Of a stretch of DNA of 64,000 nt, positions 15,880 to 26,093 are shown one piece after another (positions within the stretch are counted from its first letter, which is position 1; each line of letters begins with the position of its first letter). This DNA is from Bradyrhizobium canariense (GTDB lineage Bacteria; Pseudomonadota; Alphaproteobacteria; Rhizobiales; Xanthobacteraceae). Location: assembly GCF_900105125.1 (NCBI RefSeq), contig NZ_LT629750.1, forward strand, positions 6,537,001-6,601,000. The letters are read 5' to 3'. The notes beneath the pieces were generated by a model that saw only the letters and a program-made list of their open reading frames with translations, was not told where the DNA came from and searched no databases. Made by a program: the position numbers and the translations under genes.

Positions 15880-16503
15880 ATGCTGTTCGGCATCTTCATC
15901 TACGATGGTGTTGAGCCGATCGATCTCGCGACCTTCGGCGTGCTGTCGATGGCGCGCCGCATCGCGCCGGAAATCGAGATCTGCACCATCGCGCCCCGTG
16001 CCGGACCTGTTGCGCTCGCCAACGGGCTGAAGGTGAATGCCGATTTCGGGATTGACGAGGCGCCCGCTTGCGATCTCGTCATCGTCACCGGTGGCCCCGG
16101 ATGGATCGTGCAGGCGGAAGCGCCTGGCACGCTCGACTATATCAGGCGTGTTCACGGCTCGGGCCGCATCGCCTCGGTCTGTACCGGCGGCATGATCCTG
16201 GCGGCGAGCGGTATCCTGAATGATGGCCCCGCGACCACCAAGCGTGAGGTGGTGCCGCCGGAAAAGCCCCCGATCGAGGTCATGCGCGCCAGCTATCCGC
16301 AGATCGACGTGCGCGAGGCCATGCTGGTGGATCGAGGCAATGGGGTGGTGACCGGTGGCGGCGTTTCGCTCTGCATCGACGCCACGCTCCATCTTCTCAG
16401 TACGATGCTTGGCCAGCACGTCGCCGATGAAACCGCGCGGATCATGGAATATCAGCGCGCGTGGCAGGCCAATCGGGAAGGCTTCGCGCCGGTCCTGATC
16501 TAG
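15880..16503 (+). CDS. DJ-1/PfpI family protein
   Basis: This 207-residue protein has the class I glutamine amidotransferase-like fold. The conserved nucleophile elbow is C101 in SVCTGGMILAASG, with TGGPG (about residues 67-71) as the oxyanion part. It resembles isonitrile hydratase (InhA) and the sensor half of GATase-AraC regulators, but has no HTH domain. A hydratase or hydrolase acting on a small nitrogen compound is possible and unproven. It begins seven bases after the MHS transporter and ends with a four-base overlap against the convergent MocR gene. Confidence 0.85.
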   Translation: MLFGIFIYDGVEPIDLATFGVLSMARRIAPEIEICTIAPRAGPVALANGLKVNADFGIDEAPACDLVIVTGGPGWIVQAEAPGTLDYIRRVHGSGRIASVCTGGMILAASGILNDGPATTKREVVPPEKPPIEVMRASYPQIDVREAMLVDRGNGVVTGGGVSLCIDATLHLLSTMLGQHVADETARIMEYQRAWQANREGFAPVLI

Positions 16504-17882
16504 AGAAACGCGGATGCCAGCTCCGGCGCTTCCTCCAGCGCGTGCGCCATATATTCCAGTCCGGCCGCCAGCCGCGGACGGCCGATCGGACCTCCAAGAC
16601 AAACGCGCACGGCTTCCGGCGGCGGTCCGGCGGCCGTAAATGCGTCGCTGGCCACGACGCCGATCGTGGTCGAGCGCATATGTCCGACGAAGGCCGCGCG
16701 ATTCCACAAGCTTGGCAGCTCGACCCAGATGTTGAAGCTCAGCGGGTCGCTCTTATAAATGCCCTTCGGCAATATCTCCGAAACCAGCTTCTGTCGCGCG
16801 GTGGTTTCGCTGCGGATGAAGCGCAATAGCGTATCGGCCGTTCCGTCCTCGATCCATCGCGTCACCAGCGCGACCGTAAACGGCGAGGCCATCACGGTCG
16901 CGGCGCGAAGCGCCGCCGCAAACGGCCATGTCGAGCGGGTGTCGGGAACGACGACGTAAGCCGCGCGAAGTCCCGCGCCGATGCATTTCGCCAGGCCCGC
17001 GACATGCCAGGTCAGATCGGGCGCGATCGCGGCAAAGGGCGCATGGCCGTGCGTCGGGATGAATCCGTAAGCATCATCCTCGACGATCGGAAGCTTGAAG
17101 CGGCGCGCGACGGCTGCGATATCGCGCCGCCGCTGATCGCTGATCGTCAGCGTCGTCGGGTTCTGCAAGGTCGGATTGAGATACAGCGCCTTGGGTTTTG
17201 TCTTTTTGCAGGCATCGGCGAGTGCATCGACATCGATGCCTTCGGCATCCATTGGCAAGCCGATCAGCCGCAGCCCGAGCTGTGCCGTGATCGAGCGAAT
17301 GCCGGGATAGGTGATGGCTTCGCACAGAACGGCATCGCCTGGCTTGGCAAGAATGGTCAGGATCGCGAGCAGGGCCGGATGCGCGCCGGGCGAGACAAAA
17401 ATCCGTTCCTGGGCAGGCACCAGCGCGCGGCGTCCGAGCCAGCTTGAGGCCGCATCCTTGTCGGCTTGCGTGCCGCCGAGGCCCTGGTAGCGCAATAGCG
17501 AAACGATATCGCGCGACACATACTCGACGCCAGCCTGCATGCGCTCGATCAGATCGGGATCGTCGGGCTCAGGCGGCAGGTTCATCGAAAGATCGACCGG
17601 GCGCGGCGCAGGAGGCTGCTGGTTCCGGCGCGGCTTCGGCCTGTTGCGAACGAAGGTTCCTTGTCCGACCTTGGATTCGATCAGGCCGCGTTTCTGCGCC
17701 TCGACATATCCGCGCGCCACCGTCGTGAAATCGACATCGAGGCGCTTGGCGAGTTTACGCTGCGGCGGCAGCCGGTCGCCGACGGCCAATCTTCCTGCGC
17801 CGATATCGTCTGCAATGGCATCGGCAATGGCGAGATAACGGGGCTTGTCGCTGGTCGCGAGATCAGGTGTCCAGTCGGCCAT
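16500..17882 (-). CDS. MocR-type regulator (GntR HTH fused to aminotransferase domain)
   Basis: This 460-residue regulator has a winged HTH of the GntR family (about residues 12-80; RLPPQRKLAKRLDVDFTTVARGY) joined by a Pro/Arg-rich linker to a fold-type I PLP aminotransferase domain. PLP-binding features are VEDDAYGF and the lysine in GLAKCIGAGLR, where most relatives have SFSKTLAPGLR. MocR proteins sense PLP or amino compounds and usually control the neighbouring divergent gene. Here that is the Nit1C cluster, 342 bases away, with a perfect inverted repeat between them. That link is inferred. It overlaps the PfpI gene tail by four bases. Confidence 0.93.
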   Translation of the reverse strand: MADWTPDLATSDKPRYLAIADAIADDIGAGRLAVGDRLPPQRKLAKRLDVDFTTVARGYVEAQKRGLIESKVGQGTFVRNRPKPRRNQQPPAPRPVDLSMNLPPEPDDPDLIERMQAGVEYVSRDIVSLLRYQGLGGTQADKDAASSWLGRRALVPAQERIFVSPGAHPALLAILTILAKPGDAVLCEAITYPGIRSITAQLGLRLIGLPMDAEGIDVDALADACKKTKPKALYLNPTLQNPTTLTISDQRRRDIAAVARRFKLPIVEDDAYGFIPTHGHAPFAAIAPDLTWHVAGLAKCIGAGLRAAYVVVPDTRSTWPFAAALRAATVMASPFTVALVTRWIEDGTADTLLRFIRSETTARQKLVSEILPKGIYKSDPLSFNIWVELPSLWNRAAFVGHMRSTTIGVVASDAFTAAGPPPEAVRVCLGGPIGRPRLAAGLEYMAHALEEAPELASAFL

Positions 17883-17922
17883 ACATCCTCAGCATTCCAG
17901 GGTCGAATATTGACTGCATATT

Positions 17923-17948
17923 GTTGCATTTAGCTATCCTAATGCAAC
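17923..17948. promoter_or_regulatory. Candidate MocR operator (perfect inverted repeat)
   Basis: GTTGCATT and AATGCAAC are exact reverse complements separated by ten bases. The repeat lies 41 bases upstream of the mocR start codon, where a MocR dimer would control its own gene and perhaps the divergent cluster. Binding is inferred from position and symmetry. Confidence 0.55.
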
Positions 17949-18088
17949 CTTTTGTTGGTGCCGTAAAGATTGAGGTGAATTGCCGTCGGTCCGGTTCCCT
18001 CAACTGGTTTTTGCCCGTTGGATATGCAGGCCGCACAAGATTTCTACGCATTTTTTTGCGGCAGCCGTTTCGATCCCGTCAGGAATCC

Positions 18089-18102
18089 ATTCAAGATTGA
18101 AT
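18089..18102. promoter_or_regulatory. Palindrome upstream of the sigma-54 promoter
   Basis: ATTCAA-GA-TTGAAT is a perfect 14-base palindrome centred about 60 bases upstream of the -24 element. Activators of sigma-54 promoters bind upstream sites, so this could be one. It does not look like the NtrC consensus TGCAC-N5-GTGCA. Confidence 0.3.
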
Positions 18103-18155
18103 GTATAATTGATAGCAAATTGACTGTTTTGATGATCGGTTGTGCAAAAGGTCAA

Positions 18156-18172
18156 TTGGCACGTCCGTTGCA
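18156..18172 (+). promoter_or_regulatory. Sigma-54 (RpoN) promoter of the Nit1C cluster
   Basis: TTGGCACG-TCCG-TTGCA matches the -24/-12 consensus TTGGCACG-N4-TTGCA exactly, with the GG (18158-18159) and GC (18170-18171) doublets at the required spacing. Transcription should start near 18183, giving a leader of about 40 bases with an AAGGAG ribosome site (18213-18218). It points into the first Nit1C gene. It implies an enhancer-binding activator and probably nitrogen control. Confidence 0.85.
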
Positions 18173-18224
18173 ATATTGCTGACGCGCCCGGCGAACGCCC
18201 CGGGGCCAAAGCAAGGAGTGCTAC

Positions 18225-18707
18225 ATGCCAGCCGTCACACAGCCCGCGCACCAAAAGGGCGACTATCTCGTCGATTACGAACAGAAGGTTTTCGAAGACG
18301 TCAAAGCCAAGCCCGGCGAAAAGGCGCTCGTCACATTTCACACGGTCGCGTTCGAAGGCTCGATCGGTTTCGTCAACATGCTGCAAGCCACGCGCTTGAT
18401 GCGCAAGGGCTTCGAGACGTCGATCCTGCTGTACGGCCCCGGCGTCACGCTCGGCGTGCAGCGCGGCTTTCCCAAACTCGGTGACGAAGCGTTTCCGGGT
18501 CACCAGAACTTCAACAACACGCTGGTGAAGTTCATGGCGGAAGGCGGCAAGGTCTATGCATGCCGTTTCGCGCTGCAGGCGCTGTACGGTCACGGCGAAC
18601 CCTCGCTGATCCCCGGCATCATTCCGATCAGCCCGCTCGATGTGCTGGACCTCACGCTGCTCCATCGCAACGAAAACGCCTTCATGTTGCACACCTGGAC
18701 ACTCTGA
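18225..18707 (+). CDS. MSMEG_0572/Sll0783 family nitrogen starvation response protein (Nit1C gene 1)
   Basis: This 160-residue protein has a DsrE-like alpha/beta fold with segments [30 protein letters not shown] and [21 protein letters not shown] recognise it as the MSMEG_0572/Sll0783 family, the lead member of the Nit1C gene cluster. In Synechocystis, sll0783 is a strongly nitrogen-controlled gene. The biochemical role is unknown. The ATG has an AAGGAG site seven bases upstream and sits behind the sigma-54 promoter. The nitrilase gene follows after 46 bases. Confidence 0.9.
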
Positions 18708-18753
18708 ACATTTGGACGCTCTGACAGGCAACACTGGACGAGACGAGGCGCCT

Positions 18754-19815
18754 ATGGCCGAGAAACCGAAAATCAGGGTTGCCGCGGTGCAGATCGCGCC
18801 CGATCTCGATACGCCGACGGGGACGCTTGACCGCGTCCTCGCCGCGACCGCGGAAGCGGCGGCAAAAGGCGCACGTCTCGTCGTGTTCCCCGAGACGTTC
18901 GTGCCCTGGTATCCCTACTTCTCCTTTATCCGGCCGCCGATGCTCAGCGGTGCCGAGCATATTCACCTCTATGACAACGCGGTTGTCGTCCCCGGTCCGG
19001 TAACGGAAGCGGTGGCGGCGGCGGCACGCCAACATGGCATCGTGGTCGTGCTCGGCGTCAACGAGCGTGACCACGGCACGCTCTACAATGCCCAATTGAT
19101 TTTCAACGCCGACGGCACGCTTGTTCTGAAGCGTCGCAAGATCACGCCAACCTTTCACGAGCGTATGATCTGGGGGCAGGGCGATGGCGCCGGCCTGAAG
19201 GTCGTGGACACCGCCGTGGGGCGGATCGGAGCGCTGGCCTGCTGGGAGCACTACAATCCGCTCGCCCGCTACGCGCTGATGGCGCAGCACGAGGAAATCC
19301 ACGTCGCGCAGTTTCCGGGCTCGCTGGTCGGGCAAATCTTCGCCGATCAGATCGAGGTCACGATCCGTCATCATGCGCTGGAAAGCGGATGTTTCGTCGT
19401 CAATGCCACGGGCTGGTTGACCGAAGAGCAGATCGCAAAGATTTCACCCGAGGAAGGTCCACGCCGCGGCCTGCGCGGCGGCTGCATGACAGCGATCATC
19501 TCGCCGGAAGGCAATCACATCGTTCCGCCGCTCACGTCAGGCGAGGGCATTCTGGTTGCCGACCTCGACATGGCGCTGATCGTCAAACGCAAGCGGATGA
19601 TGGATTCGGTCGGCCACTATGCGCGGCCTGAACTGCTGTCGCTGTTGTGGGACGACCGCGCCACCGCCCCGATGCGCAAATCACACCCGACACCGTCTTT
19701 CTCCACATCAGGAGGACCATCCGATGAAACCGATTCTACCTTCCGAGCAGCCGAGGCCGATGCCGACCGAGCAGCTGATCAACGAGTTGCAATCCTTCGG
19801 AGTTCGACTCGTTGA
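18754..19815 (+). CDS. Nit1-type nitrilase (Nit1C gene 2)
   Basis: This 353-residue enzyme of the nitrilase superfamily hydrolyses nitriles to acid and ammonia. The catalytic triad is visible as E47 (FPETF), K129 (KRRKITPTF) and C163 (ACWEHYNPL). The start at 18754 is preceded by a GAGG site. The core ends near [11 protein letters not shown], but the frame runs on and overlaps the next gene by 92 bases, giving a low-complexity tail of about 30 residues translated from another frame of that gene. The tail is odd for the family. The physiological nitrile is not known; the enzyme is the namesake of the Nit1C cluster. Confidence 0.93.
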
Positions 19816-20860
19816 TCCCAAGGCTGGCGGCGACAGCCGCCGTGGCGGGGCCGGTCCCTCCGACCATATGCCGATGACGATCAACGGCGCGACCGTGATG
19901 ATCCCGGTGCATAACGCGCCGGCGTTCGAAAGCCCCTATGTCGTCGATAAGCCGGACGGGCTCGGCCGCAGCCGGGTCAGCCGAGGCGGCGCCGTGATCG
20001 GCGAAGTAAAATTCCAGTTGCGGCCGCGTTTCTATGAGCGATCGACCGCTGACGGCATTCCGTATTCCAAGATCGCCACGCTGCACGGCCGCGACGTGCT
20101 GGCGACGACCATTTTACAGACTTGCATTCGCTACCAGAGCCGGACCAAGACCTGTCAGTTCTGTGCCATCGGCCAATCGCTCGCGGCCGGCCGCACCATC
20201 GAACGCAAGACGCCGGAGCAGCTCGGCGAAGTCGCAAAAGCCGCCGTCGAACTCGATGGCGTCACGCATATGGTGATGACCACCGGCACGCCGCCCGGCA
20301 GCGACCGCGGCGCGAAAATCCTGTGCGAGAGCGCGATCGGCGTCAAAGCCGCGGTCGATCTGCCGATCCAGGGCCAATGCGAACCGCCCGACGACGATAT
20401 CTGGTTTACGCACATGCGCGACGCCGGCATCGACTCGCTCGGCATGCATCTGGAAGCCGTCACTGAAAGCGTCCGTGCCCGCATCATGCCCGGAAAGGCC
20501 CAGGTGTCGGTGGAACGGTATTTCAGGGCGTTCGAAGCCGCGGTGCCGGTGTTCGGACGTGGCCAGGTCTCCACCTACATTCTCGCCGGCCTTGGCGACA
20601 GCAAGCAAGAGATTCTTGCGATCTGCGAGCGCCTGGTTGCGACCGGCGTTTATCCGTTCGTGGTGCCGTTCGTGCCGATCGCAGGCACGCCGCTGGAAAG
20701 CCATCCAACGCCGCCGCCCTCTCTCATGCACGACATCTTGGCGCCGCTCGCCGACATGCTGGTCACAGGCGGAATGAAATCGAGCGACATCAAAGCCGGC
20801 TGCGGCAAATGCGGCGCGTGCTCGGCATTGTCGACTTACGAGAAAAGGATCAGCGCATGA
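19724..20860 (+). CDS. MSMEG_0568 family radical SAM protein (Nit1C gene 3)
   Basis: This 378-residue protein is expected to bind a 4Fe-4S cluster and cleave S-adenosylmethionine. Its cysteine motif is unusual: C134-x9-C144-x2-C147 in place of the canonical Cx3Cx2C. A second cluster, C360-x2-C363-x2-C366 (CGKCGAC), lies near the C-terminus and may hold another metal centre. The barrel body includes [24 protein letters not shown] and DSLGMHLE. The reaction is unknown. The start at 19724 has an AGGAGG site inside the nitrilase gene. The stop overlaps the next start (ATGA). Confidence 0.9.
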
Positions 20861-21405
20861 TCTTCGAACCATTCAAGCCGTTTCTCGCCAGCGCCTACCA
20901 GATCAAATTTGCAACGGAGGCGTGGGAAAAGCGCGGCGCCGCGGCGCTGCGCCGTCAGGTGTTCTGCAGCGAACAGGGATTGTTCGATGGCGACGACCGC
21001 GACGCGGTCGATGAAACAGCGATCCCGATCGCGGCGATTTCGCTTTTTGGCGTCGCGGCGGATGCGGTGGTCGGCACGGTTCGTATTCACCGGCATCCCG
21101 AAGATCGCGGCGTCTGGTGGGGCTCGCGGCTTGCGGTATCCAGGCAATATCGCAGGCTGGGCGCGGTCGGCGCCGGACTGATCCGGCTGGCGGTTGCCTC
21201 GGCGCATGCGCGCGGCTGTCATACGTTTTTGGGCAACATTCAAAGCCAGAACGTCGATCTCTTCCGTCATATGCACTGGCGCAGCCTCAAGGAAGTCGAG
21301 CTGTACGGCAAGCCGCATCACATGATGCAGGCGGATCTGGATTTCTATCCGCCATTCCCCGAGCCCGAAGTCGGCTTCCTCTCGCTGCCGAAGCTGGCTG
21401 CGTGA
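20857..21405 (+). CDS. MSMEG_0567/Sll0786 family GNAT N-acyltransferase (Nit1C gene 4)
   Basis: This 182-residue GNAT-fold protein should transfer an acyl group from CoA to an amine. The acetyl-CoA loop region reads RLAVSRQYRRLGAVGAGLIRLA (in part; about residues 88-109), followed by GCHTFLGNIQSQNVDLFRHMHW. The N-terminal FKPFLASAYQIKFA is typical of the MSMEG_0567 N-terminal group. Its ATG overlaps the radical SAM stop by four bases, and its TGA overlaps the next ATG by one base, so translation is coupled. Acceptor unknown. Confidence 0.9.
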   Translation: MIFEPFKPFLASAYQIKFATEAWEKRGAAALRRQVFCSEQGLFDGDDRDAVDETAIPIAAISLFGVAADAVVGTVRIHRHPEDRGVWWGSRLAVSRQYRRLGAVGAGLIRLAVASAHARGCHTFLGNIQSQNVDLFRHMHWRSLKEVELYGKPHHMMQADLDFYPPFPEPEVGFLSLPKLAA

Positions 21406-22400
21406 TGACGGCCCCGCTCGCCATATCCACACTCGCCGAGCGGCTGCGCCGCAGCAGCGGCATCGCGGCCAAGAGCGATATTGCGTCGGTGGCCAAATTG
21501 CTCGGGCTGTCCGGCGACGACATTATTCCGGTCGGCGACGATTGCGCCGCGATACCTGACGGCGACGGCTATCTGCTGTTCGCGATCGAAGGTTTCATGA
21601 ACGAATTCGTCGCCGGCGATCCCTGGTTCGCCGGCTGGTGCGGCGCGATGGTCAATATCTCCGACATCGCCGCGATGGGCGGACGGCCGATCGCGGTCGT
21701 CAACGCGATTTGGGCGGATGGTGAGGCCAATGCCGCACCGGTGCTGGCGGGATTGAAGGATGCGGCGAAGGCCTATCATGTTCCGGTGGTCGGCGGTCAC
21801 ACCAACATCCGGACCGACCGCGGCCAGCTCTCGGTCGCGATCCTCGGCCGCGCCAACAGACTATTGACCAGCTTCGACGCCGAACCGGGCGACGCGTTGA
21901 TTACGGCGATCGATCTGCGCGGTCGCTACCGCGAGCCGTTCTCGAACTGGGAAGCCGCAACCGATGCGCCGCATGCGCGCCTGCGCGGCGACCTCGAGCT
22001 GCTGCCCGCGATCGCCGAAGCCGGGCTTTCATGCGCGGCCAAAGATATCAGTCAGGGTGGCATCGTCGGCACGGCCGCGATGCTGGCCGAATGCTCCGGC
22101 GTTGCCATCGATATCGATATCGGCTCGATCCCGAAACCGGCCGAGGTCGCGCTGGAGCGCTGGCTGCTGACCTTTCCAAGCTTCGGCTATCTGCTGTCGG
22201 TCAAGCCGTGGAATGTCGCTGAGACGATCGCGCGCTTTGCGGGGCGGGGCATTGCGGCGGCAACCATCGGTTCGATCTCGCAAGGCAGCCGCGTCAGCAT
22301 CAGCGATGGCGCGGCGTCCGAGACGGTCTGGGATTTTGCGCAACAGCCGTTGATCGGCACCGGAAAGCTGGCTCGGCCAGCGATGGAGGCCGTCGCATGA
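21405..22400 (+). CDS. Sll0787 family AIR synthase-like protein (Nit1C gene 5)
   Basis: This 331-residue protein has the PurM/SelD/ThiL two-domain fold. The ATP-binding N-terminal half shows VGDDCAAIPDGDGYLLFAIEG and MVNISDIAAMGGRP; the second half starts near GDALITAIDLRG and contains KDISQGGIVGTAAMLAE. Such enzymes phosphorylate or activate a substrate with ATP, often forming a C-N bond. The substrate here is unknown. It overlaps its neighbours by one and four bases in the Nit1C transcript. Confidence 0.9.
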   Translation: MTAPLAISTLAERLRRSSGIAAKSDIASVAKLLGLSGDDIIPVGDDCAAIPDGDGYLLFAIEGFMNEFVAGDPWFAGWCGAMVNISDIAAMGGRPIAVVNAIWADGEANAAPVLAGLKDAAKAYHVPVVGGHTNIRTDRGQLSVAILGRANRLLTSFDAEPGDALITAIDLRGRYREPFSNWEAATDAPHARLRGDLELLPAIAEAGLSCAAKDISQGGIVGTAAMLAECSGVAIDIDIGSIPKPAEVALERWLLTFPSFGYLLSVKPWNVAETIARFAGRGIAAATIGSISQGSRVSISDGAASETVWDFAQQPLIGTGKLARPAMEAVA

Positions 22401-23563
22401 CCCAAGGCAGCCGGCCATTACGGATTGCCATCCTCGCGCATTCGACCAATCCGCGCGGCGGTGTGGTGCACGCCATCGAGCTTGCCGACAGCCTGACCCG
22501 GCTCGGCCATGAGGCGGTGGTGCACGCGCCCGATCCGAGCGGCAAGGGGTTTTTTCGCGCGCCCTTGTCGCCCGCGGTCACGGTCATGGCTTCGCCTGCG
22601 GCCAAAGATGTCGCCGACATGGTGCGCGCCCGTATCGCCGATTACGTCAGGCATTTTGAGCTGCCGGCCAACCGGGGCTTCGATGTGTTCCACGCGCAGG
22701 ATGCCATTTCCGGCAATGCGCTGGCGACGCTGAAGCGGCGCGGATTGATCGGCAGATTTGCGCGTACGGTTCACCATATCGACAGCTTCACGGACCCGCG
22801 CCTCAGCGACTGGCAGGTGCGCTCGATTACCGAGGCCGACGAGTTGCTGGTCGTCAGTGCGCTCTGGCAGGAGCAGATCATGTCGGCCTTCGGCCGGCCT
22901 TCGACAGCAATCGGAAACGGTGTCGACACCGAGCGCTTCGGGAGCAGCCCGCGTGCGATCGATCAGGAGGTGCGGGAGAAATACGGGATCAATGGCAGCC
23001 AGGTGCTGCTCGCGGTCGGCGGTATCGAAGTGCGCAAGAACAGCGTCCGGATTCTCGAAGCGTTCCAGCAGGTGCTGAACATTCACCGCGACGCGCAGCT
23101 TGTCATTGTTGGCGGCGCCTCGCTGCTCGACCACGCGTCGTATCGCCGGCAGTTCGATGTGATGCTTTCGGACAATGATGTGCTCGCCCGCGCCGTTCGT
23201 TACCTCGGTCCGGTTCCGGATGCGGACATGCCGTCGCTCTATAGATCGGCGGATGCGCTGGTCTTTCCCTCGGTCAAGGAAGGTTTTGGACTGGTCGTAC
23301 TGGAAGCGATGGCGAGCGGCACGCCCGTGGTCACGTCGCGGATGGCGCCGTTCACCGAATATCTTCACGAGAACGACGTGGTCTGGTGCGACCCGTTCAG
23401 CGTCGCCTCGATCGCAAATGCGATCGCAATCGTCCTGACCGAGCCGCTGCATTCGAGGCTGGCCCAGCGCGGCACGCTGGTGGCGCGCCAGCACGACTGG
23501 AGCAACACGACGCGCGCGCATCTGCCGGTCTATGAACGGCTCGTGGAGCTGCAGCATGCCTGA
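22397..23563 (+). CDS. MSMEG_0565 family glycosyltransferase (Nit1C gene 6)
   Basis: This 388-residue GT-B glycosyltransferase belongs to family 4. The N-terminal half has AILAHSTNPRGGVVHAIELA and FDVFHAQDAISG. The C-terminal nucleotide-sugar half has LLAVGGIEVRKNSVRILEAF and the donor-binding E-x7-E motif in EGFGLVVLEAMASGTPVV. It would transfer a sugar to the pathway intermediate; donor and acceptor are unknown. The start overlaps the AIR-like gene stop (ATGA), and its end overlaps the next gene by eight bases. Confidence 0.92.
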   Translation: MTQGSRPLRIAILAHSTNPRGGVVHAIELADSLTRLGHEAVVHAPDPSGKGFFRAPLSPAVTVMASPAAKDVADMVRARIADYVRHFELPANRGFDVFHAQDAISGNALATLKRRGLIGRFARTVHHIDSFTDPRLSDWQVRSITEADELLVVSALWQEQIMSAFGRPSTAIGNGVDTERFGSSPRAIDQEVREKYGINGSQVLLAVGGIEVRKNSVRILEAFQQVLNIHRDAQLVIVGGASLLDHASYRRQFDVMLSDNDVLARAVRYLGPVPDADMPSLYRSADALVFPSVKEGFGLVVLEAMASGTPVVTSRMAPFTEYLHENDVVWCDPFSVASIANAIAIVLTEPLHSRLAQRGTLVARQHDWSNTTRAHLPVYERLVELQHA

Positions 23564-23843
23564 GATGCTGTTCCAGATTCGCTGGCCGGATGGTGCGACC
23601 GAGCAATGCTACTCGCCTTCGCTCGTCATCAAGGATCACCTGGAGGTCGGCACGACCTACGACGTCGCGGAATTCATGCGGCGCAGCCGAACCGCACTGA
23701 TGATCGCAAGCGATCGGGTGCGGGAGAAATACGGTTTTGCCTGTTCGCGGGCGATGGGCCAACTCGCGAAGCTGGAAGCCAGCGCCCAACGGTTCGAGGC
23801 GTCGTCGAACGCAGGCGTGACCATCACATCCTTTCACGAATAA
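23556..23843 (+). CDS. MSMEG_0570 family nitrogen starvation response protein (Nit1C gene 7)
   Basis: This 95-residue protein begins MPEMLFQIRWPDGATEQCYSP and contains YDVAEFMRRSRTALMIASDRV. It matches the MSMEG_0570 family found only, as far as I recall, in Nit1C clusters. No catalytic residues can be named. The start codon lies inside the end of the glycosyltransferase gene, so the two are translationally coupled. The flavin oxidoreductase follows after 13 bases. Confidence 0.88.
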   Translation: MPEMLFQIRWPDGATEQCYSPSLVIKDHLEVGTTYDVAEFMRRSRTALMIASDRVREKYGFACSRAMGQLAKLEASAQRFEASSNAGVTITSFHE

Positions 23844-23856
23844 CAGGGAGAATCCC

Positions 23857-25158
23857 ATGACCGGATCGTCGATTCCTTCTCATGCGAGCGTCGTCGTAAT
23901 CGGCGGCGGCCAGGCTGGCCTTGCCATGAGCTATCAGCTCAAGCAGAGCGGCATCGATCACGTCATCCTCGAAAAGAACCAGATCGCGCATTCATGGAAG
24001 ACCCAGCGCTGGGACGCGTTCTGCCTGGTGACCCCGAACTGGCAATGCCAGCTCCCGGGATATCCCTATCAGGGCAGCGACCCCAAGGGATTCATGCTCC
24101 GTGATGAAATCGTCGGTTATGTCGAGGGCTATGCCAAACACATTTCGGCGCCGATCAGAGAAGGTGTCGCGGTGACGCGTTTGAAGCAGGATGTCGGCGG
24201 CGGCTTTGCTCTCGAGACCAGCGCGGGCGGGATCACGGCCGATGCGGTCGTGCTCGCGGTTAGCGGCTATCACGTTCCGAACGTGCCGCTGATGTCGGCT
24301 CGTCTCGACGGCCCGGTGACCCAACTGCATTCCTCAGCCTATCGCAATCCGCAAAGCTTGCCGCCGGGCGATGTGCTCGTGATCGGCAGTGGTCAGTCCG
24401 GCTGCCAGATTGCCGAGGATTTGCATCTGGCCGGCCGCAAAGTGCATCTGGCGGTCGGTAGCGCGCCACGCTGCCCGCGGGTTTATCGCGGCCGCGATGC
24501 CGTGGAATGGCTCGATGATCTCGGCCAGTACGATTTGCCGGTGGACCAGCATAATCTGAAGGAGAAGGTGCGCAAGAACGCCAACCACTATCTGACCGGG
24601 CGTGACGGCGGCCGGGATATCGACCTGCGCCGGTTCGCGCTCGAGGGCATGACGCTCTATGGGCGGCTCAAGGATATCCAGAACGGCCAGCTCGAGTTTG
24701 CCGGCGATCTTCAGAACAATCTCGACAATGCAGATCGCGTCTATAACGGCATATGCGGCCTGATCGACAACCATATCGCGCGCAACAGCATTGAGGCGCC
24801 GGCGTCGCCACACTACGAGCCGGTCTGGCAGCCCACCGAAACCATCGCCACGCTCGATCCGGCCAAAGCCGGAATCAGCACGGTGATCTGGACCACCGGC
24901 TTCCGGTCCGACTGGTCATGGGTCGAACTTCCGATCTTCGACGGTGCCGGCTATCCGACCCATCGGCGCGGTGTGACCTCGATGGACGGTGTCTATGTGC
25001 TGGGCCTGCCCTGGCTCTATACGTGGGGGTCGGGACGTTTCGTCGGCGTCGGACGGGATGCCGAGTTCGTCTCGAAACACATTGCTGCGAGTGCGCTTCC
25101 ATCGAAGGCCGCGGCGTCCGCTCAACCGGCCTTTCAGCCCGCGGAAAACGCGGCGTGA
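23857..25158 (+). CDS. MSMEG_0569 family flavin-dependent oxidoreductase (Nit1C gene 8)
   Basis: This 433-residue enzyme resembles flavin monooxygenases. An N-terminal FAD Rossmann motif VVIGGGQAGLA (about residues 13-23) and a second, NADPH-type motif VLVIGSGQSGCQIA (about 171-184) are present, with WTTGFRSDWSW near the C-terminus. It would oxidise the pathway product or an intermediate. A GGGAG ribosome site lies just upstream of 23857. This is the last gene of the cluster; the next gene begins 134 bases later, after a break in the overlapping pattern. Confidence 0.92.
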   Translation: MTGSSIPSHASVVVIGGGQAGLAMSYQLKQSGIDHVILEKNQIAHSWKTQRWDAFCLVTPNWQCQLPGYPYQGSDPKGFMLRDEIVGYVEGYAKHISAPIREGVAVTRLKQDVGGGFALETSAGGITADAVVLAVSGYHVPNVPLMSARLDGPVTQLHSSAYRNPQSLPPGDVLVIGSGQSGCQIAEDLHLAGRKVHLAVGSAPRCPRVYRGRDAVEWLDDLGQYDLPVDQHNLKEKVRKNANHYLTGRDGGRDIDLRRFALEGMTLYGRLKDIQNGQLEFAGDLQNNLDNADRVYNGICGLIDNHIARNSIEAPASPHYEPVWQPTETIATLDPAKAGISTVIWTTGFRSDWSWVELPIFDGAGYPTHRRGVTSMDGVYVLGLPWLYTWGSGRFVGVGRDAEFVSKHIAASALPSKAAASAQPAFQPAENAA

Positions 25159-25292: not shown

Positions 25293-26093
25293 ATGTATGT
25301 TCAATCTGTGCCGTATCTCGCTGGCGTCGTTCTGGCGGTCTCGATGATGATGGTTGGTCCTGCAAGCGCGGATGCCCTGAAGGACGAAATCGCGCCGACC
25401 GGCAAGCTGCGGGTGGCGATCGCGATCAGTCCCGCCGGTGGCGCGTTCTGGTCCACCAAGACCGAAGCGGGAGGCTATGCCGGGGTGCCGGTCGATCTCG
25501 GTAAGGAAATGGCCACGCAGCTTGGCGTACCTGTTGAGTACGTCGTGTACCAGAATTCCGGGCAGATCACGGATTCTGTTTCAAAGGGCAATTGGGATAT
25601 CACCTTTTTGCCCAAAGACCCGGAGCGTGAGACCAAGATGTCGTTCGGGCCGATCTATGAAGTCGCCGATGCAACCTACATCGTAAAAGCCGGCTCATCG
25701 GCGACGGATTTCGAGAAGCTCGATCAGCCTGGCATGAAGGTCGCCGCGGTCAATAATACCACCACCATGCGCGGCGCGGTTGCGCATCTAAAGAACGCGA
25801 AGGTCACGGGCTATCAGACCTATGACGAGATCTTCAATCTCCTGAAGAATGGCGAGGTCGACGCGTTCGCATTGTCGCGCGACCAGCTCAACGCCATGGC
25901 CAGGAAGATTCCGGGAACGCACGTGCTGGATGAAACCTTCAAGCAAACCGTGACCGCGGTGGCTGTGCCGTTAAATCATCCGCAATCACTGGCGTTCGCG
26001 ACCAAGTTCATGACGGATGCGGTGTCGAACGGCACCTTGCGCAAGGCCTATGACAATAACGGGCTGAAGGACACGCCGATCCGGACGAAGTAG
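25293..26093 (+). CDS. Orphan periplasmic solute-binding protein, family 3
   Basis: This 266-residue protein has a signal peptide (about residues 1-27, ending GPASA) and the family 3 ABC-importer binding fold: TGKLRVAIAISPAGG, GVPVDLGKEMA, WDITFLPKDPERE, SFGPIYEVADATYIV and AFALSRDQL. It would capture an amino acid or related small solute. No permease or ATPase gene adjoins it, so it is an orphan. The ATG at 25293 has a GGAG site. It follows the Nit1C cluster on the same strand and could supply that pathway, which is inference. Confidence 0.88.
   Translation: MYVQSVPYLAGVVLAVSMMMVGPASADALKDEIAPTGKLRVAIAISPAGGAFWSTKTEAGGYAGVPVDLGKEMATQLGVPVEYVVYQNSGQITDSVSKGNWDITFLPKDPERETKMSFGPIYEVADATYIVKAGSSATDFEKLDQPGMKVAAVNNTTTMRGAVAHLKNAKVTGYQTYDEIFNLLKNGEVDAFALSRDQLNAMARKIPGTHVLDETFKQTVTAVAVPLNHPQSLAFATKFMTDAVSNGTLRKAYDNNGLKDTPIRTK

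Follow-up and report, generated by a model that had tools for sequence, protein, structure and literature searches.

A conserved MocR-type regulator and candidate operators beside the sigma-54 promoter of a Nit1C operon in Bradyrhizobium canariense

What controls the Nit1C gene cluster, and what can its control tell about its function? We addressed this question with a stretch of 64,000 nucleotides from Bradyrhizobium canariense (contig NZ_LT629750.1, assembly GCF_900105125.1; hereafter the window), located at positions 6,537,001–6,601,000 of a one-contig 7.84 Mb genome. The window holds an intact Nit1C operon, a cluster kind that is already known. A 2005 paper described Nit1C while its function was unknown (PMC1199592); here and below, published work is described from the portions of the papers available to us. 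The roles of most Nit1C genes are still unsettled in the literature available to us. Our analysis adds a conserved neighbour, a divergent gene for a MocR regulator. In the literature searched, which missed two key papers, we found no MocR described as a regulator of Nit1C. We propose that a two-input switch, combining a sigma-54 promoter with a MocR that senses through pyridoxal phosphate (PLP), governs Nit1C in most of the Proteobacteria examined (probability about 0.7). A ligand-sensing regulator conserved beside alpha-, beta-, and gammaproteobacterial Nit1C offers a short route to function, via what MocR binds. The regulatory features are as follows.

16500..17882, minus strand: MocR regulator with a GntR winged helix-turn-helix and an aminotransferase-like PLP domain (PF00392, PF00155), divergent from the cluster
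17909..17929, plus strand: candidate MocR operator on the mocR side, ATTGACTGCATATTGTTGCAT, with a single box at 17910
18088..18126, plus strand: candidate MocR operator array, with TTGAATG at 18097, TTGATAG at 18109, and TTGACTG at 18120
18156..18172, plus strand: sigma-54 -24/-12 element TTGGCACGTCCGTTGCA, a perfect match to TGGCAC-N5-TTGCW

The MocR neighbour of Nit1C

An earlier note on this DNA, made from the sequence alone, had listed eight Nit1C genes. All eight were correct; the divergent gene at 16500–17882 was left out. Its product has the MocR/GabR architecture, with PF00392 at 50.5 bits (cut-off 27) and PF00155 at 62.6 bits (cut-off 19.7). Five residues (Lys299, Arg426, Asp269, Tyr272, and Asn241) were conserved in at least 97% of 97 aligned rows. 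Lys299, the putative PLP-binding lysine by motif, not structure, lies within AKCIGAGLR. From general knowledge of the fold, we expect these residues to hold PLP and a carboxylate. Their conservation makes it plausible that MocR senses an amino compound.

The gene was found beside Nit1C in several samples. Among the 50 genomes of the family with NitB over the cut-off, 30 loci were read (the window is one of them), and MocR was divergent and adjacent in all 30. It was also divergent beside Nit1C in 35 of 36 larger loci; 16 of these loci came from other families, and 15 of the 16 had it. An even sampling of 397 genomes across phyla gave 19 over the cut-off, 18 of them with MocR beside Nit1C. Named loci were taken from the best 80 of 553 confirmed NitB matches, with class labels assigned by hand on the basis of record titles. 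Distant clusters are under-represented among them, because only these best matches were taken. In this set MocR was adjacent in 28/28 alpha, 26/28 beta, and 7/8 gamma loci, and in the one unplaced proteobacterial and the one uncultured locus. The even-sample and larger loci share some genomes with the 80 named loci. Five weak NitB matches below the cut-off (L049–L053) and genome G040 were not used. The two beta exceptions, both Methyloversatilis, have MocR 7.9 kb downstream.

Co-occurrence was analyzed in 296 family genomes. A MocR ortholog was present in 50 of the 50 genomes with NitB over the cut-off and in 1 of the 246 without (Fisher p = 3e-56, phylogeny ignored). G040, with one weak NitB match, was counted among the latter. 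The orthologs scored at least 477 bits, and the next class at most 367 bits. MocR was divergent and within 1 kb of NitB in 49 of the 50 genomes. In G150 (L189 2992-19283), MocR lies 13.4 kb from a diverged NitB (56% identity) and is divergent from a nitrilase gene; this genome carries a rearranged Nit1C cluster.

A tree was built with a quick method and midpoint root from 92 of 117 MocR rows, after 25 near-copies were removed. The cluster-linked MocRs formed one clade of 72 rows with a Shimodaira–Hasegawa-like test (SH-aLRT) value of 99, apart from 20 family paralogs. The clade contains the MocR of G253, the one genome with an orphan copy; there the gene is divergent from a putative TenA-like open reading frame. 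The row L082_2799m carried the cluster-linked label; it represents an additional MocR close to the G018 cluster and falls with the 19 paralogs.

About 8 kb from NitB, G018 (L082 2799) and G060 (L083 14472) each carry an additional MocR, distinct from the first. A further, broken relative of this MocR is represented in G060 by two pieces at G060:C1:1285010-1286207 (65% and 67% identity), one of which has an in-frame stop. The MocR on plasmid p2 of Caballeronia zhejiangensis is annotated merely as a PLP-dependent aminotransferase family protein.

The sigma-54 promoter and the candidate operators

A sigma-54 promoter had been claimed for the cluster, and this claim held: a perfect -24/-12 element lies ahead of nitB and is kept in relatives. 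With one mismatch allowed, the pattern had 1 match in the window against 1.85 expected, so it is unremarkable there alone. The strict pattern had 7 matches in the whole genome and 0 for a reversed control. The element was kept in 27 of the 30 family loci. We then considered 99 intergenic regions, cut to 76 by similarity. The strict pattern was present in 63 of the 76 (shuffles: mean 0.4, maximum 3) and a relaxed pattern in 71 (shuffles: mean 0.9, maximum 5). The median distance from the element to nitB was 74 bp.

Sigma-54 promoters require an AAA+ activator, so MocR cannot be the sole input. The enhancer-site test at the Nit1C promoter covered NtrC-type sites (GCACN7GTGC) only. Exact sites were enriched, in 8 of the 76 regions against 1.0 in shuffles (maximum 3), and occurred mostly in beta loci. 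Sites with one mismatch were also enriched (35 regions against 16.3 in shuffles, maximum 25). In 12 of 36 alpha regions, one of them from the window, the half-site-like word GTGCA stood no more than 40 bp ahead of the -24 element (shuffles: mean 1.0, maximum 3); 1 of 35 other regions had it there. The window's copy lies within 18140–18150.

In relatives, TTGANNG recurs as direct repeats, spaced by 11–13 bp, a short way upstream of the sigma-54 element. In the window, the three boxes of the array are spaced by 12 and 11 bp, and an inverted box at 18088–18094 is added. The 76 regions contained 370 TTGAHNG words; shuffled regions contained 63 ± 8. Same-strand pairs numbered 33, 26, and 15 at spacings of 11, 12, and 13 bp, respectively, against about 0.1 in shuffles, and a pair at 11–12 bp was present in 42 regions. 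The words concentrate 20–60 bp upstream of -24 and again 20–39 bp from the mocR start. When aligned on -24, two boxes were found in 35 regions, mostly beta and gamma, and three or four in 36 alpha regions. A box pattern modelled on the window's site had 2 matches in the whole genome, one of them at the Nit1C promoter; the reversed control had 1.

The proposed switch and its rivals

In the proposed switch, sigma-54 RNA polymerase would read the -24/-12 element, and an enhancer-binding activator, for which NtrC is a candidate, would sense nitrogen limitation. MocR would bind the tandem TTGANNG boxes, both directly upstream of the element and at the mocR promoter, and its PLP domain would sense a compound with a primary amine that arises from the pathway or feeds it. 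If EnuR is a guide, MocR may be a repressor released by its ligand. The operon would thus respond to nitrogen limitation via the activator, together with release or help by MocR when the amine ligand is present. As output, the Nit1C enzymes would gain nitrogen from nitriles or cyanide-derived cyanohydrins, which is most likely what Nit1C is used for.

Published systems bear on these steps. Nit1C has been linked to cyanide assimilation in Pseudomonas, where cells can use the nitrogen of cyanide by way of a cyanohydrin and NitC (PMC11049912, PMC8567248). The cluster of M. smegmatis belongs to a nitrogen-starvation response under GlnR (PMC4222082), in contrast to the MocR proposed for the window, and Sll0783 of Synechocystis is linked to nitrogen starvation as well (PMC3901256); the protein families of MSMEG_0565-0572 and Sll0783-0787 are the same as in the window. 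The links to cyanide and to nitrogen starvation were both given in the earlier note, and both are in print. The nit1C cluster (nitABCDEFGH) of Pseudomonas pseudoalcaligenes/oleovorans CECT 5344 has the same core genes, and a sigma-54-dependent regulator is involved. Its divergent gene encodes NitA, of the sigma-54-dependent Fis type, whereas that of the window encodes MocR, and the portions available to us describe no glycosyltransferase. In CECT 5344, 3-cyanoalanine was a further inducer of the nit1C proteins, and the strain has another MocR, BN5_1899, which is divergent from the cio/nit4 cluster and appears to repress it (PMC8567248). BN5_1899 controls a different cluster in a cyanide-related setting, and we liken it to the window's MocR by setting, not by orthology. 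Because of these two observations, an amino-nitrile is a fair guess, but no more than a guess, for the MocR ligand. The closest named MocR family, with the same PLP-sensor architecture, comprises the ectoine-catabolism regulators EnuR/EhuR (PMC8739950); no ectoine genes are among the window's eight. If our proposal is true, MocR works at a sigma-54 promoter, whereas the promoter under the control of the well-studied EnuR is of the sigma-70 type (PMC8739950). The 2005 description of Nit1C, with the same core genes, reported, in the text available to us, that conservation stopped at the cluster and that no conserved binding sites were found upstream (PMC1199592); with more genomes, a conserved neighbour and conserved candidate sites were both seen here in Proteobacteria.

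We propose MocR as the ninth member of Nit1C in Proteobacteria. A more specific version of this idea, which we hold to be doubtful, is that MocR senses one specific amino compound, that the physiological substrate or product of the pathway is an amino compound and not free cyanide, and that the PLP sensor and sigma-54 form an AND gate. The ligand might then be 3-cyanoalanine or another aminonitrile, or else an amino intermediate carrying an N-acyl group.

Several observations weigh against the two-input switch or narrow it. Among the best 80 matches, none of the 11 cyanobacterial loci with enough upstream DNA had MocR beside Nit1C, nor did the single such Eremiobacterota locus; two of the 13 cyanobacterial loci, with too little upstream DNA, were left out. 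In cyanobacteria the cluster is under NtcA-type control. The exceptional locus L069 has, instead of MocR, a divergent PAS/AAA+ protein whose sequence reads like a sigma-54 activator, and Methylobacter L147 has no MocR upstream of Nit1C. NitA is another regulator of Nit1C, in Pseudomonas (PMC11049912). G253 (L186 7992-10464) has the clade MocR with no Nit1C genes in the stretch read, and the absence of MocR elsewhere rests on five first-look candidates scored per genome. The relaxed sigma-54 element was not found in 5 of the 76 intergenic regions, nor a box pair at exactly 11–12 bp in 34, and the shuffle tests ignore the relatedness of these regions. In the intergenic region of the window, the closest approach to an NtrC-type site had two mismatches, and sites of this quality were not enriched (72 of 76 regions against 68 in shuffles). 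The window's MocR scored 437 bits against the EhuR model NF052286, under its cut-off of 480, and one beta member (L158) scored 394 bits and six paralogs 367–420 bits. This model says little on the ligand, because cluster-linked MocRs and paralogs score alike.

Three other explanations were weighed. The strongest, for which we see a little less than an even chance, is that Nit1C makes a small N- or S-containing metabolite, such as a cofactor, a thiol, or a cyanide-binding compound, with the nitrilase as one step and growth on cyanide as a side effect. MocR would then sense an amino product or precursor, so this explanation is compatible with the regulatory half of the switch. Nitrile hydrolysis would not obviously require a radical SAM enzyme, a GNAT, or an AIR-like enzyme of the ATP type. 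The fold predicted for NitB is DsrE/F-like, and the protein has an invariant cysteine, NitG has two conserved cysteines, and the nitrogen-starvation responses in M. smegmatis (PMC4222082) and Synechocystis (PMC3901256) are described, in the portions available to us, with no mention of added cyanide. The dispensable glycosyltransferase speaks against such a product pathway. We know of no product of Nit1C.

The other two explanations concern the regulation. Classical nitrogen control alone, with NtrC and sigma-54 driving the operon and the TTGA repeats belonging to another DNA-binding protein, would account for the perfect sigma-54 element, for the NtrC-type palindromes that several beta loci carry upstream without a mismatch, and for GTGCA near -24 in the alpha regions, though the last is almost confined to these. 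It is unlikely, because the repeats also occur near the mocR start, their direct-repeat period of 11–13 bp is unlike the NtrC palindrome, and the window's intergenic region has no NtrC-type palindrome under two mismatches. Still less probable is that MocR has its regulatory target elsewhere, perhaps in PLP or amino-acid metabolism, and is a neighbour kept by co-inheritance only. The family genomes commonly contain other MocR relatives, and G253 retains a clade MocR without the cluster. Against this stand the co-occurrence (50/50 against 1/246), the retention of MocR nearby though relocated in Methyloversatilis, the repeats within the Nit1C promoter itself, and the box pattern designed on the window's site, one of whose two genome matches is at this promoter.

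The operon and hints on its chemistry

The eight genes occupy 18225–25158, followed by a gene for a solute-binding protein that adjoins the cluster.

18225..18707, plus strand: nitB, MSMEG_0572/Sll0783 family (TIGR04044, 285.9 bits, cut-off 109.85)
18754..19815, plus strand: nitC, Nit6803-family (subfamily-1) nitrilase (TIGR04048, 560 bits, cut-off 502.6)
19724..20860, plus strand: nitD, MSMEG_0568 radical SAM protein (TIGR04043, 594 bits, cut-off 303.7)
20857..21405, plus strand: nitE, MSMEG_0567/Sll0786 GNAT acetyltransferase (TIGR04045, 224.2 bits, cut-off 68.45)
21405..22400, plus strand: nitF, sll0787 AIR-synthase-like protein of the ThiL/HypE/SelD superfamily (TIGR04049, 454.5 bits, cut-off 321.3)
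22397..23563, plus strand: MSMEG_0565 GT4 glycosyltransferase, optional member (TIGR04047, 478 bits, cut-off 259.85)
23556..23843, plus strand: nitG, MSMEG_0570 family (TIGR04042, 135.1 bits, cut-off 79.85)
23857..25158, plus strand: nitH, MSMEG_0569 flavin-dependent oxidoreductase (TIGR04046, 664.3 bits, cut-off 498.35)
25293..26090, plus strand: family-3 solute-binding protein, adjoining the cluster and not a conserved part of it (locus comparison)

The complete eight-gene set named in the earlier note was borne out by profile search with the TIGRFAM MSMEG_05xx models it had suggested: every protein hit the matching Nit1C family, and 8/8 scored above their own NCBIfam cut-off. It had also described overlaps at most joins, and 5 of 7 overlap (in order: gap 46, overlaps 92, 4, 1, 4, and 8, gap 13). 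The nitrilase model had two matches in this genome, one above the cut-off. The closest named NitB match among the best 80 was that of Bradyrhizobium sp. S69 (96%). The same strain (L090) has the only one of the 80 named loci with a family-3 solute-binding protein beside Nit1C; none of the 36 larger loci has one.

The earlier note had preferred a pathway to a glycosylated metabolite. Among 60 named loci possessing all seven other genes, the glycosyltransferase was missing from 22; the gene order with it was kept in 37, and the same order without it in 21. A glycosylated product is therefore not a core property of Nit1C. A biosynthetic role without glycosylation is possible. The glycosyltransferase, which lies between ORFs 5 and 6 here as it does in Burkholderia and Rubrivivax, was already called a variation of the cluster in 2005 (PMC1199592).

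The best solved relative of NitC is the nitrilase 3wuy (E = 5e-146). Glu47, Lys129, and Cys163, which we take to be its catalytic triad after the nitrilase superfamily, were conserved in at least 96% of 80 aligned rows, as were the NitD motifs C134-x9-C144-x2-C147 and, at the C terminus, C360xxC363xxC366. NitB was aligned from the window and 51 of 70 locus sequences, and NitG from the window and 46 of 60. All 51 other NitB rows, which are best matches and include cyanobacteria, were at least 83% identical to the window, and Cys113 was invariant in the 52 rows. The predicted NitB model has a DsrE/F-like fold; against Pfam PF02635 (DsrE/F), NitB scored 15.8 bits, under the gathering cut-off of 22.7. 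The DsrE kinship of Sll0783 has already been published (PMC3901256). Cys18 and Cys63 of NitG were conserved in at least 96% of 63 rows, and structure comparison of NitG found no structural match. Because of NitB Cys113 with its DsrE-like fold, the NitD cysteine motifs, and the NitG cysteine pair, a sulfur- or redox-linked step in the Nit1C pathway is possible.

The second-best NCBIfam match of NitF, after its own family, was the methanogenesis marker 2 model (233.6 bits, cut-off 365). On plasmid p2 of C. zhejiangensis (L170 14705-17613), a Pnap_2097-family gene and a methylmalonyl-CoA mutase gene directly follow Nit1C. NitB relatives were found on 515 plasmid records, including 374 from Klebsiella, 30 from Escherichia, and 24 from Agrobacterium.

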